From Candidatus Gastranaerophilales bacterium (GTDB taxonomy: Bacteria; Cyanobacteriota; Vampirovibrionia; Gastranaerophilales; Gastranaerophilaceae): a DNA stretch of 64,000 nt. Location of the stretch: positions 27,931 to 91,930 of the forward strand of contig CALUTI010000008.1 of NCBI GenBank assembly GCA_944323695.1. Reading direction: 5' to 3'. Below the pieces are notes generated by a model. That model saw only the letters and a program-made list of their open reading frames with translations, searched no databases and was not told the DNA's origin. A program made the position numbers and the translations under genes. Position 1 is the first letter of the stretch. Every line of letters begins with the position of its first letter. Shown here one piece after another: positions 8,095-56,924 of the stretch.

Positions 8095-8433
8095 ATGATT
8101 AATAACGTGAAAAGCTGTCCGAATTTCGGTTCAACCAGAATCCCGTATAAAGATGTACCGGTGGCAAAATATCTTGAGCCATTAAATAAATACTTTGAAG
8201 TAAAAGGCTTTAATCTTATGAAACCTCAGGAAGCAGCTGATAAACTTGATTTTGGAAAAGCTGCTGCAATGATGGATAAAGATGCCATGATTATTGTAGG
8301 CAAAGACGGCGGCCCTGGCGGTGCTGATACCTTTATAGGACGTCTTTTGAAAAAAATTGATCCTGATGTTAAATATATTGATGATGTAAAGCCGGTTGAA
8401 ATCGACGGACCGGTTATTGATCTGAATATTTAG
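8095..8433 (+). CDS. Small hypothetical protein with N-terminal NFG motif
   Basis: This is not a family I recognise. The 112-residue product starts MINNVKSCPNFGSTRIP and continues with a short mixed alpha/beta protein containing KDAMIIVGKDGGPGGADTFI. The ATG is preceded by AAAGGAG at a good distance. An in-frame GTG one codon earlier is less likely. The motif PNFGS at residues 9-13 resembles NFAG, TFGE and SFGK near the start of three other unrelated proteins in this window. The 3' end overlaps the convergent comM gene by 20 bases. Function unknown. Confidence 0.7.
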   Translation: MINNVKSCPNFGSTRIPYKDVPVAKYLEPLNKYFEVKGFNLMKPQEAADKLDFGKAAAMMDKDAMIIVGKDGGPGGADTFIGRLLKKIDPDVKYIDDVKPVEIDGPVIDLNI

Positions 8434-25914: not shown

Positions 25915-26214
25915 TTATCCTATTTTATCAAATTTTTGCCCAACTTTTGACATGCTTTCTTCAAACATAGCCTCTTGATTTTCCGGGATATTGAATACTA
26001 CATTAAAAGGAGCGGATTTATCTTTATTATAAAGTCCATTGTAAAAATCAGCCAATTTTTTTGAGACTTCTTCACCATTATATGCATAACCGCAGGCGAC
26101 ACCAAGCATATAATCACGTTTTAAACAAGCATCCTGATTAGGCATAGCCTGATTTGCGTTAAGCTGATATTTTCCGGCAAAGTTAAGATTTGAGTTAATT
26201 TCATTACATTTCAT
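25915..26214 (-). CDS. Small hypothetical protein with N-terminal NFAG motif, antisense within the ribosomal cluster
   Basis: No known family is recognised. The 99-residue product begins MKCNEINSNLNFAGKYQLNA, with the NFAG element at residues 11-14. It contains a helix pair and ends KVGQKFDKIG. The ATG has AAAGGTGGT upstream, a good ribosome site. It lies between rpsN and rpsH in the reverse direction, where other bacteria have no gene. The NFAG element parallels NFGS, TFGE and SFGK in other proteins of the window. Confidence 0.65.
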   Translation of the reverse strand: MKCNEINSNLNFAGKYQLNANQAMPNQDACLKRDYMLGVACGYAYNGEEVSKKLADFYNGLYNKDKSAPFNVVFNIPENQEAMFEESMSKVGQKFDKIG

Positions 26215-38184: not shown

Positions 38185-38469
38185 CTATGCCATATACGGC
38201 AGGTGGATGTATGAAGTTTCTGCTCTATTAGAGTCTTTATTTGGTGAAAATAGTATATTATAAGCCTTGGCAAATTTACGACCTAATGCCTTTACAGGAT
38301 TAGATTGGACAGCATCTGCTTCCTGAGTAAGTCTTAAATTCTTTTCAAATTTCAATTTATCAGAATTTTGTAAGGATAAAAGACCAATTTTCGGGGTTAT
38401 GTTGTTCATATTACCTTCACCGAAGGTTACGTGTTTTGTATTTATATTACTTATAGGAGTTACTCTCAT
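38185..38469 (-). CDS. Small hypothetical protein with N-terminal TFGE motif
   Basis: Unknown family. The 94-residue product starts MRVTPISNINTKHVTFGEGN, with VTFGE at residues 14-18, then a basic helical middle (SNPVKALGRKFAKAYNILF) and a polar tail. It belongs with three other window proteins that carry FG or FAG near residue 12-20. The leader holds CCTC-GAA-AGGAGG, in which the ribosome site can pair with CCTC, so translation may be restrained by a small hairpin. Confidence 0.6.
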   Translation of the reverse strand: MRVTPISNINTKHVTFGEGNMNNITPKIGLLSLQNSDKLKFEKNLRLTQEADAVQSNPVKALGRKFAKAYNILFSPNKDSNRAETSYIHLPYMA

Positions 38470-53205: not shown

Positions 53206-55710
53206 TCAACCTATTCTTTCAAAATCAAAAGTTTTTTTGGATTTACCGGCATTTTGCCTGTCTTCTCCAAGAACAGTATCTTGAGTCATCTTATTAAATT
53301 CTTCCGGATGATACATCATATATTCTCTAAGCTGAGCGCGTGTTTTATCACCGCTGCTGTTCATATATTTAATAGCAGACGTTTTAACAACAGGAGAACA
53401 TTCTTTAAATACTTCTATCCCTCTGCCGTTGTCAACAAACATCGGCACCAATTCAGGGAAATTATCGCATATTTTTACCGGTAATTTTTCAAATAATTTT
53501 TTCGGTAATGCTCTTAAAACATTCTGCTGCTCTTGCCTTGTTAAATACCTGAAGTTTTCAACAGCCTGCTCATGCGTAAGCTCACCGCGGTGAGTTTCTA
53601 TTGTATTATAAGTCTTTTTGGCATTCGCCGACAAATCCTCATAAGAAACCGTATTTACAGTTATATTTTGATTATTAACAACAGTATTTGTTACCGGACT
53701 ATTATTAGATATTTCGGAATACGAATTATTTGTTTTTATATCAGATGAATCTTTAGGTGCAGGCGGCTCTGTTCTGATTGCGTCCGTCAAATTTTCCTTG
53801 CCGAGAGATTTGGTGTAATCGCTTGCCCAATCTCTTACGCTTTCGTCCAATTTATAGATATTATTTGCGGCGTATTCCTGAACCTCATCGAATTTTGATG
53901 ACATAACAATCTTGTAGATGTCATCCTGGTTTTCCGCGTCAACCCCGGATGCGTTTGCATCAGCCAAACCTTTTTGAACTTCTACAGCATCCGCATCAGA
54001 TAAATATTGAGTTGCATCCATTGTGTTCTGCGCAAACGGCACCTGCGCATCTTTTTCTATAATTTTTTCTGCCAAGGCGTCATTAAAACCATGCAGTGCA
54101 AATTTATCACCGGATCCCTTTTCTAGATATGCTTCTTGCGATTTTACCTGAACATCCGCAGAAGCACCTTCCAAACCACGTTTTACCTGATCTTGTCTTG
54201 TGGAATTATTGCGGATATTATTAATCATCGCAAAATATTTAATTCGATCTTCATCATTAGAGGCAGATTTAACCAATTCATGAAATTTATTTTGAACAGC
54301 ATCCGGAGCTTTTGAAGAAATTAATTCTACAGCATTATCACGACCATCTCTAGCCATAGCTTTACCAGAGATAACTGCAGCATCTGTGCATTCCGGAGAT
54401 GCTGCGGCGGCGGCATTCATAAAGTTTGTAATGCCTATAGTCTGTTGATCGTCAAACTCTTCTGTTCCGTTTTGTTCTAAATAATCAGCTGAACCGTTCA
54501 ACACATTGGTCATTTCATGACTAACACCATTTTCAAACATTGTCTGCAATGCCTTTTGGTCCATACCCCAATGAGCTATCAAATGTGCCACATATTCCGG
54601 TTTTTCCTTATAGATTGCCAAAAGAATAGCCTCTCTGGCGTATTTTTTCTCTTTATCAGAAAGCCCTGCTAATTTGTCATTTTCTATATAACTTATAAAA
54701 GCTTCGCAGCGGTCATGTTTATTAAGATTATTACCGCGTATTTGATTATTAAATTCCGAAAGAATACCTTCATACGAATTTTTGACGCCGCTTTTTTCAA
54801 GTTGTTCATTTGTTTTTTCTAATACTATAGACAATGCCTGATCATCAGAATTCTTTTTTATAGAATATTCAAACTTTACGGCTTCATCTTTAAATTCTTT
54901 AAGTTTAGCTTCTAATTCTGAATTTTCAGGATTAGCATCAACTTCTTTCTGAAGATTTTCAATCTTTCCTTGAAGAAAATTATATTGTTTAGTTTGCACT
55001 TCAATGCGCAGTCCAAGCTGTTGAGAATATGATAAGTTTTGTATATCTTCGTCGCTGAAACCGGTTTCAATCATCACGGCAAAATCAGTCATGACGCGAC
55101 TTCTAATTCTTTCTTTTCTGTTCTCGGGCATGTTTGCCCATTTTTCATCGGAAAAACCGCGTATTTTTTTTATACGATTATCTAAAAGTTCTAACCTTGC
55201 AGCTGCTTTTTGATCTTCGGGTATATCTTTTAAATGTTCATTCATTTTCGCCTGAACATAGGCGACTCTCTGTTCCGGAGACATTTCCCGCCAGGCTTTT
55301 TCTGTTATAGTTGGTTTAGGAGTATCGTCACGCTTAATAATGCTGTTTTCTTTATTCTGGACTTCGGCCTTTACTTCCACAGGATTTTCTATTGATGTCA
55401 ATTTGCCATCTGCGGCTTCTGTTGTTGTTTTTTCAATAGATAAACCAGGTATTCCAAAATTAGTTTTATCAGCAGGATTTTTAATTTGATTAATCTTATT
55501 ATTTACTTCAGCTTTTTCCTCCGGCGTAAGCAAAGCATATTTTTCTGGTGTTAAACCCAATAACTTTAATAATTCGTCATCAATAGCAACAGGCACAATA
55601 GTATTTTTTGAACTTTCAGCAGTAGAAACTGGCGTAACAGAGCCTGCAGGATTTATTTGCGCCTGCTGCACATTCACATTCTGTTTAATTGTACCGTCAC
55701 CAAAAGCCAT
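53206..55710 (-). CDS. Large hypothetical helical protein, 834 residues
   Basis: I do not recognise a family. The protein starts MAFGDGTIKQNVNVQQAQIN with no signal peptide. A middle of repeated helical motifs (LTPEEKAEVNNKINQIK; MSPEQRVAYVQAKMNEHLKD; RLELLDNRIKKIRGFSDEKW) suggests several copies of a short helical unit. After residue 650 there is an Asn/Ser-rich stretch (NNSYSEISNNSPVTNTVVNN), then a C-terminal helical domain (EQAVENFRYLTRQEQQNVLR). Size, charge and repetitive helices suggest a cytoskeletal, surface or secreted filament-like role, but this is inference. It lies next to another lineage-specific gene. Confidence 0.65.
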   Translation of the reverse strand: MAFGDGTIKQNVNVQQAQINPAGSVTPVSTAESSKNTIVPVAIDDELLKLLGLTPEKYALLTPEEKAEVNNKINQIKNPADKTNFGIPGLSIEKTTTEAADGKLTSIENPVEVKAEVQNKENSIIKRDDTPKPTITEKAWREMSPEQRVAYVQAKMNEHLKDIPEDQKAAARLELLDNRIKKIRGFSDEKWANMPENRKERIRSRVMTDFAVMIETGFSDEDIQNLSYSQQLGLRIEVQTKQYNFLQGKIENLQKEVDANPENSELEAKLKEFKDEAVKFEYSIKKNSDDQALSIVLEKTNEQLEKSGVKNSYEGILSEFNNQIRGNNLNKHDRCEAFISYIENDKLAGLSDKEKKYAREAILLAIYKEKPEYVAHLIAHWGMDQKALQTMFENGVSHEMTNVLNGSADYLEQNGTEEFDDQQTIGITNFMNAAAAASPECTDAAVISGKAMARDGRDNAVELISSKAPDAVQNKFHELVKSASNDEDRIKYFAMINNIRNNSTRQDQVKRGLEGASADVQVKSQEAYLEKGSGDKFALHGFNDALAEKIIEKDAQVPFAQNTMDATQYLSDADAVEVQKGLADANASGVDAENQDDIYKIVMSSKFDEVQEYAANNIYKLDESVRDWASDYTKSLGKENLTDAIRTEPPAPKDSSDIKTNNSYSEISNNSPVTNTVVNNQNITVNTVSYEDLSANAKKTYNTIETHRGELTHEQAVENFRYLTRQEQQNVLRALPKKLFEKLPVKICDNFPELVPMFVDNGRGIEVFKECSPVVKTSAIKYMNSSGDKTRAQLREYMMYHPEEFNKMTQDTVLGEDRQNAGKSKKTFDFERIG

Positions 55711-55805: not shown

Positions 55806-56924
55806 TTATTCATCACCCAACACCAGATTAGATACATGTTGATTAACTTTGACAGCGAATTTCGAATTATTATTATAAGCAGAATCTTGCAGAGCCTTTA
55901 CAATTTCAGCGCCTAATATATCATCACATATAATAAAACTATAAAGATCTAAATGATTTCTATTTAAATCAGATATTTCATCACCTGAGCCAAGTTCGAT
56001 TGCTGTTATTGTAGCTGTATTCATCGCATTATCTATACCGTGTATTTTCCCGTCAATAAATGTAACGCCCCTTACATTAAAGTCCCAATTGCTACCTTCG
56101 GGCAATAGTGTTAAAACTTCAAAGTCACTTTTATTTTCATCATAATCATAAAATCCGAGTTTATAATTTCCGAATGGTGTTTGGATCAATTTATCAGGTT
56201 TAACTTTATCCAGGTCTGTCATACCATCACCTGTGTGCTTTTGTGTATACTTAAACGATGAAACGGTTCTTGCATGATCGTCATTTATAAAATCATCGTC
56301 AACAAAAAGCAGATCACCTTTTTCGTTAGCGACAATCAAATTACTATGATCTTTGCGAACTCCTTTGATATTACTTTGATTTGTTGGCTGAGAGATAACT
56401 GCTTCAACATAACTTACAATATTCGGATCTAAAAAACTAAATCGTTCTTTTTCGCCATTAAGTTCGGTCTCGCATATAAGTTCCTTAAGGCGTATAGGAC
56501 CCTCTTTTGCACCGTTTTCATTGTAAAAATAGATTTCTCTATCAACAAGATCTTTAGCTTCAAAGGTACTCTCACCAACTTTTAACACTATTTGATCAAA
56601 GCTGTCAGTGCCGCCTTTCGTGTTAAATGCCATTACTGCAACCTTTGACCCATTTTGAGATGTAAAACCTTCCGCATACATAAGCACTCGGCTCTGCGAC
56701 TGCGGAGCTTCAGCAAGCTCAATTGTGTGTGCATTGCTCTCTGCACGCATAATATTTTCCGCATTTGTCGTGGTTAAAGGACTCATTGCTATCAAAACCG
56801 CCAGCGGAACCGCTTTTACCGGACTTGTAACATTATGATTTTTTGCAGGTTTTTCACCGCGTTTTCCAAAACTTATATTTGAATAACCCTTATTCGTAAC
56901 ACTTGATAATGCCTGAATTGCCAT
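55806..56924 (-). CDS. Hypothetical protein with N-terminal SFGK motif and hydrophobic segment
   Basis: Unknown family. The 372-residue product starts MAIQALSSVTNKGYSNISFG, with SFGKRGEK at residues 18-25. After a basic stretch comes a short hydrophobic segment (VKAVPLAVLIAMSPLTTTNA) that could be a late signal or anchor. The rest is a beta-rich region with NLIVANEKGDLLFVDDDF, GNYKLGFYDYDEN and VRGVTFIDGKIHG, which could be a repeated beta fold. The ribosome site GGGAG precedes the ATG. The FG motif before the hydrophobic segment is shared in position and style with other window proteins. Confidence 0.62.
   Translation of the reverse strand: MAIQALSSVTNKGYSNISFGKRGEKPAKNHNVTSPVKAVPLAVLIAMSPLTTTNAENIMRAESNAHTIELAEAPQSQSRVLMYAEGFTSQNGSKVAVMAFNTKGGTDSFDQIVLKVGESTFEAKDLVDREIYFYNENGAKEGPIRLKELICETELNGEKERFSFLDPNIVSYVEAVISQPTNQSNIKGVRKDHSNLIVANEKGDLLFVDDDFINDDHARTVSSFKYTQKHTGDGMTDLDKVKPDKLIQTPFGNYKLGFYDYDENKSDFEVLTLLPEGSNWDFNVRGVTFIDGKIHGIDNAMNTATITAIELGSGDEISDLNRNHLDLYSFIICDDILGAEIVKALQDSAYNNNSKFAVKVNQHVSNLVLGDE

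Follow-up and report, generated by a model that had tools for sequence, protein, structure and literature searches.

The window analyzed here, a stretch of 64,000 nucleotides, is part of contig C8 of a 1.73-Mb Gastranaerophilales genome (G000, the source genome) and contains four genes whose predicted products begin with a short polar segment followed by a Phe-Gly motif (Table 1). The sequence-only reading that singled out these genes described them accurately: the four open reading frames lie where it placed them, encode proteins of 112, 99, 94, and 372 aa, and carry the motif at the residues it gave; the bodies of the proteins are unrelated to each other (best non-self blastp match, E 0.15), and in the largest protein the motif is followed by a hydrophobic stretch. 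A Shine-Dalgarno-like site is present upstream of each of the four starts, and none of the four proteins matches a Pfam family above its cut-off. The motif takes the FG form in three of the four proteins; the sole F-x-G form, LNFAG, belongs to the 99-aa protein, which has a Leu at the site where the strict pattern defined below calls for P, I, or V.

Table 1. Tagged genes of the window and features of the 372-aa protein (window positions)
Feature	Position	Strand	Basis
372-aa protein: leader with the tag, hydrophobic segment resembling a signal peptide, beta-rich body with no PDB fold match (E<=0.001)	55806..56924	-	ORF; 39 homologues; model
SFGK motif, residues 18-21 of the 372-aa protein	56862..56873	-	Phe 19 invariant in 22 aligned homologues
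Polar leader, residues 1-17 of the 372-aa protein	56874..56924	-	sequence
Hydrophobic segment KAVPLAVLIAMSPL, residues 37-50, signal-peptide-like	56775..56816	-	conserved in 39/39 homologues, loose pattern
112-aa tagged protein, PNFGS at residues 9-13 (8119-8133)	8095..8433	+	orthologues
99-aa tagged protein, NFAG at residues 11-14 (26173-26184)	25915..26214	-	orthologues
94-aa tagged protein, TFGE at residues 15-18 (38416-38427)	38185..38469	-	orthologues

Polar starts of a like kind (MAFGDGTIKQNVNVQQ, MPNVGDVKQNVTVQ, and MxIEFNGKGNVNN), which may represent a second recurring N-terminal signature, occur in a gene of the window (53206-55710, minus strand) that lies 95 bases downstream of the gene for the 372-aa protein on the same strand, and in genes at L014:13683 and L020:15403 and 15954 (L and G numbers denote loci and genomes, respectively).

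In the family of the 372-aa protein, the Phe of the motif is more persistent than the residues around it: the motif appears as SFGK, NFGK, NFEK, NFEA, NFLG, or QFEG, and as AFSG or KFER in diverged relatives. A Phe precedes the KAVP segment, the signal-peptide-like stretch, in 34 of the 39 homologues. Two of the five homologues that lack it begin with MKAI.. right at this segment, and the other three have another short leader; wrong start calls may account for these cases. Majority-residue conservation is 0.79 at residues 1-12 compared to 0.48 for the body (residues 78-372). In the structural model residues 1-77 are disordered, and most of residues 78-372 are confidently predicted as beta-rich, with no PDB match to the fold of this body at E<=0.001. 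The N-terminal module was detected in 55 of 98 genomes of the order, all of the same family as the source genome. Among the 22 proteins read from 30 loci (8 loci without a readable module were dropped), it is joined to bodies of three clusters (18, 3, and 1 proteins), which are weak evidence for a module on unrelated bodies because these clusters may be remote relatives.

The orthologues of the three small proteins also retain the motif. The 112-aa protein, present in 9 of the 40 genomes searched, all of the genus, has P[NS]FGS in all seven orthologues read; the 99-aa protein (7 of 40 genomes) has FAG, FCG, or FTG in 7/7; and the 94-aa protein (21 of 40 genomes) has [ST]FG in 18 and SFKG in one of the 19 read, after removal of rows with the wrong ORF (two for the 112-aa and one for the 94-aa protein). 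Across the orthologues of all four window proteins the Phe is kept. FG and FxG swap among orthologues, and in these families the two forms are variants of a single element. The codons for F and G vary, which places the constraint at the protein level.

To assess recurrence beyond the window, genes were called in stretches of eight Gastranaerophilales genomes (1698 proteins, 1055 clusters) and of five genomes outside the order, four of the same class and one of the same phylum (416 proteins, 376 clusters). A strict pattern, [PIV][NSTAQ]F-x-G with x polar or small and F at residues 5-36, is found in the order sample, with homologues collapsed, at 17 of 33,760 N-terminal compared to 20 of 241,132 body positions (6.07-fold, p=4.5e-7), and the counts are 14 compared to 13 (7.25-fold, p=1.4e-6) when only proteins lacking homologues within the sample are considered; these and the other strict-pattern p-values are optimistic because the pattern was refined after matches had been seen, including those in the three genomes added last. 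The five genomes outside the order yield 1 vs 8 matches (1.04-fold). Before homologues were collapsed, the first five genomes of the order gave 18 vs 27 (5.3-fold), the further three 6 vs 8 (5.9-fold, p=0.003), and the four same-class outgroups 1 vs 7 (1.2-fold). In 80 named loci fetched later, which are redundant, the strict pattern occurs at 8/42,272 N-terminal vs 17/353,552 body positions (3.9-fold); two of the eight N-terminal matches lie in a hydrophobic stretch (L266, L271) and two others are alike (L220, L225). Three of the 17 cluster matches were judged by eye to be background (window:9993, L003:1671, L111:19069), leaving 14 strict carriers.

The form of the motif matters for this result. 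The literal FG is close to background genome-wide (10/33,760 N-terminal vs 39/241,132 body positions, 1.83-fold, p=0.07), and we rejected FG at residues 8-22 as the definition of the tag. In a scan of 1600 unselected residue pairs at N-termini, F.G ranks 6 and FG ranks 389. The claim that an N-terminal motif recurs on unrelated proteins of the lineage beyond chance is supported for [PIV][NSTAQ]F-x-G at approximately residues 5-36 and not supported for F-G at residues 8-22; a lack of enrichment, which the sequence-only reading had named as the outcome that would count against it, is nearly what the literal FG shows and not what F-x-G shows. Of the 69 genes called in the window itself, 11 have F.?G with the F between residues 8 and 22, compared to 5.1 in shuffles (11 is reached by 4 of 500), and four have [PIV][NSTAQ]F.?G, compared to 0.3 (four is reached by 0 of 500); the latter test is circular because the pattern was drawn in part from these same proteins, and one of its four matches (9993) resembles an ordinary enzyme. 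A looser pattern, [NSTAQ]F.?G at residues 5-36, was fixed before the last three genomes of the order were added, the strict pattern being set later; observed and shuffled counts are 10 vs 4.9 in G022, 7 vs 8.2 in G059, and 16 vs 8.6 in G030, with 1.42-fold enrichment over the body (p=0.045); the outgroup shows 1.44-fold.

An alternative is that there is no tag and that Phe-Gly is the first strand or edge of a folded domain in fast-evolving families, with recurrence produced by the fold and by ascertainment: the pattern was refined after matches were seen, the bare F.?G at residues 5-36 is 1.25-fold enriched in the order, and several small carriers have an I/V-P stretch close after the motif (SFSGVIP, SFSGTFLIP, SFQGYIP, FTGFIP). 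Against this, both modeled proteins have the motif in a leader that is predicted to be disordered and is well removed from the body, FG and FxG interchange among orthologues, and there is no enrichment in the genomes outside the order. We consider this alternative unlikely, and the N-terminal tag in Gastranaerophilales proteins is probably real.

In the leaders of the 17 carriers, Asn (2.1x), Ser (1.9x), and Gln are enriched, whereas Glu (0.31x), Asp (0.42x), and Gly are depleted. A Ser+Asn-rich leader is found in 10 of the 17 compared to 2 of 18 matched controls (p=0.004), and 10 of 32 tagged proteins (looser pattern, homologues not collapsed) begin with M[KQRN][IV], compared to 91 of 1666 untagged ones (p=8e-6). 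Disorder at the tag is predicted in both models that were built, those of the 372-aa protein and of the GT5 protein discussed below. The motif shows no evident cleavage site, and it differs from two known kinds of processed leader. Type IV prepilin leaders have a G-F junction with a hydrophobic helix at once after it; here the order is F-x-G and no hydrophobic helix directly follows the motif. Double-glycine leaders have G-G or G-A at the cleavage site; in 14/14 strict carriers the residue before the G is K, Q, S, or T. Among the 30 proteins scanned, the carriers other than the GT5 and GH77 proteins lack a Pfam match above cut-off, the one exception being an acyltransferase (L089:10340).

Neighboring pairs of tagged proteins of 518-597 aa were observed at L006:9972-13097, where the pair has no Pfam match, and at L273:15851-19319. 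A different recurring N-terminus, MG[ML]AASQARFL.., is present on proteins of 341-592 aa (L007:10434-12212, L008:8048-9073, L082:12804-14366), with no NCBIfam match in the two that were scanned.

The carriers with recognizable domains include enzymes of glucan metabolism. A 937-aa protein (L013:5419-8232) that starts MPSVQKITFRGEN has a GT5 starch-synthase match; the structures that its model resembles are starch and glycogen synthases (6gnf being the best match, E 9.7e-20), with residues 1-157 disordered. The 24 loci fetched with this protein comprise 13 ordinary GlgA proteins (479-485 aa, start M[KR][IV]LFA), all untagged, six long GT5 proteins whose start lies inside the locus, with I[ST]F[KR]G in four, NSFGF in one, and no tag in one, and five further loci that are cut. 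Together with the GlgA of the source genome (L003:16695-18137), the 13 make ordinary GlgA untagged in 14/14 read. In a set of 52 long GT5 homologues, from which the fragment P0077 was left out, [IVP][NSTAQP]F with G or x-[GAS] directly after it is found in 41/51 and a similar Phe in 51/51. The linker between this Phe and the hydrophobic segment varies from 25 to 90 residues and has a majority fraction of 0.23 vs 0.84 for the Phe. In four tagged homologues (P0042, P0046, P0067, P0068) the motif occurs a second time (TSFSGNK, PAFQGK, VSFAGN), directly before the hydrophobic segment. The GH77 protein (L081:12589-14592) starts MRILGVNSVVNFQRRP; among the 120 homologues listed of 194, all 117 longer than 620 aa have a Phe at residues 5-34, and since F-x-[GAS] is present in just 2 of these 117, its start is at best a related form of the tag.

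Disordered N-terminal leaders can serve as protease handles, and the leader could likewise be a handle for substrate recognition by an AAA+ protease. A tag on a second-copy enzyme beside an untagged one fits location better, and nothing in the analysis indicates proteolysis; a role in turnover is therefore very improbable. The suggestion of the sequence-only reading that the motif looks like a targeting tag is partly supported: recurrence beyond chance, the retained Phe, predicted disorder, and presence on the second-copy enzyme alone all point in this direction.

In the family of the 372-aa protein the leader is followed by the KAVPLAVLIAMSPL..NA segment, two of the five tagless homologues among the 39 begin at this segment, and in the long GT5 proteins the Phe is followed, at a distance of 25-90 residues, by a hydrophobic window, all of which is compatible with a tag that lengthens a signal peptide or signal anchor at its N-terminus and would tune Sec or SRP targeting. 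Autotransporters have an extended signal peptide region with such a tuning role, and the long extension before the signal-peptide-like segment in the 372-aa protein family resembles it, but most carriers lack a hydrophobic segment and the sequence is unlike that of the autotransporter region. A TM-like segment is present in just 3 of 17 strict carriers and is thus no commoner than in untagged proteins (255 of 1038); most of the carriers could not be Sec substrates in this way, and we regard an extended Sec signal as rather unlikely.

Another alternative is docking, in which the tag is a short linear motif that would tether the carriers to one intracellular receptor or scaffold, at a membrane site, a pole, or a granule, with no export involved. 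Predicted disorder, a single invariant aromatic residue, and a linker of variable length are what such a motif would show; the carriers include GT5 and, with the related form, GH77 enzymes, whose substrates are cytosolic; and 14 of the 17 strict carriers have no hydrophobic segment. No receptor was found, though, the motif is held near the N-terminus, a position that docking does not demand, and the signal-peptide-like segment in the 372-aa protein family does not fit. Docking to a cellular scaffold is possible and is a close rival of the reading that we favor.

That reading links the tag to type III export. Each of the five genomes examined from the source genome's family encodes one FlhB and an FlhA-type protein of full length (714.6-731 bits), and a flagellin match was found in none of the five; among the 15 other genomes of the order, flagellin is present in 14 and a higher-scoring FlhA in 13. 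The FlhA-type protein of the source genome does not reach NCBI's cut-off for either the flagellar FlhA or the injectisome SctV model; FliE-, FliF-, and FliH-like genes lie beside its gene, and the FlhB has NPTH. The components of a divergent type III export apparatus (FliE-, FliF-, FliH-, FlhA-, FliI-, and FlhB-like) are encoded in the source genome at L083:6159-12000, L082:9365-10711, and L287:1577-2638. Soo et al. had described incomplete sets of flagellar genes for the majority of nine Gastranaerophilales genomes (PMC4040986), and a termite-gut genome was thought to be that of a motile organism (PMC5877343).

A free-standing FlhA-C-like protein of 490 aa (L081:14625-16097) matches the FlhA cytoplasmic domain at residues 148-480, with 3mix as its best solved relative. 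It is present in 20/20 genomes of the order and 0/4 others, although one f11 genome covered by another search has a match of similar size. Its gene adjoins the GH77 gene in four of the five genomes examined from the family (G000, G021, G059, and G016, not G022); in G030 its neighbors include genes that by eye resemble flgD and flgE, and in G029 it is close to neither flg-like genes nor GH77.

We propose that the tag is a sorting or address signal that most likely routes its carriers to this filament-less type III export gate, a reading to which we assign a probability of about 0.3. Under this scheme, the polar, Asn/Ser-rich, acid-poor leader with its [P/I/V]-[N/S/T/A]-F-x-G core would be the address tag; a cytosolic receptor would read the leader via the Phe; the disordered leader would be threaded first; the retained type III gate would be the route; and a hydrophobic segment would leave its carrier in a membrane, whereas soluble carriers would leave the cytosol. 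The N-terminal position of the tag, the composition of the leader, the retention of the gate, and a parallel in Chlamydia argue for this reading. In the latter organism, fusions of GlgA, GlgB, GlgX, GlgP, and MalQ are reported to be secreted by a type III system (PMC4829429), and two of the carriers found here are of those kinds, glycogen synthase and 4-alpha-glucanotransferase.

Type III signals are described by composition and without a consensus motif (PMC2669295, PMC3338616); the tag resembles them in being N-terminal, predicted to be disordered, acid-poor, and Ser/Asn-rich, but differs in having a consensus motif and in that its carriers are not clustered at the gate genes (0.19 tagged genes per 1000 positions at flhA2 vs 0.44, or 24/54,336, in the genome samples). 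The N-terminal rules of Pseudomonas signals (aliphatic residue or Pro at position 3/4, no acid in the first 12) hold for 10 of 14 carriers compared to 176 of 1038 other proteins; against the matched control the figures are 10/17 and 8/18 (p=0.3), and part of the composition argument is thereby lost. A Ser content of at least 10% in the first 50 residues is no commoner in carriers (4/14 vs 205/1038, p=0.3). Flagellar substrates with two signals are similar in that a Phe-based motif lies downstream of a small hydrophobic residue at about position 3, but they need a spacing of at least 19 residues, with 24-30 best (PMC8983047); the spacing in the tag is too short, F being at residue 22 or later in 2/14 carriers.

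Further points against the type III reading are that the tag has a narrower distribution than the gate (FlhA is present in 3/4 same-class outgroup genomes, where the tag is not enriched), that the signal-peptide-like segment in the 372-aa protein family points to Sec, that TM-like segments are as scarce in tagged as in untagged proteins, and that the G is mostly missing in the GH77 family. In a bolder version, the flagellum-derived type III gate would serve for export in general and would have a real consensus motif as its signal: the free-standing FlhA-C would read F-x-G and hand cargo to FlhA2 and FlhB2, this cargo would include the second-copy glycogen synthase and MalQ as in Chlamydia, and glucan would be made or reworked outside the cytosol; we consider this version improbable. 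Red-algal and glaucophyte plastid transit peptides have a Phe-based motif and, like the tag, are acid-poor N-terminal leaders with one key Phe, but they serve a eukaryotic import system. Our literature search found nothing on an N-terminal tag such as the one described here.

The strict pattern marks 14 of 1055 clusters, and probably more proteins carry the tag; most carriers have no known domain, and the order is widespread in the gut. The pattern provides a rule with which carriers can be listed for every Gastranaerophilales genome. Should the type III route prove correct, it would explain why gut members without flagellin keep the gate, and the tag would be a type III signal carrying a consensus motif, of which we know no case from elsewhere. 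The tag is likely an address label, and reading it would open a protein-sorting route in bacteria rich in uncharacterized proteins.
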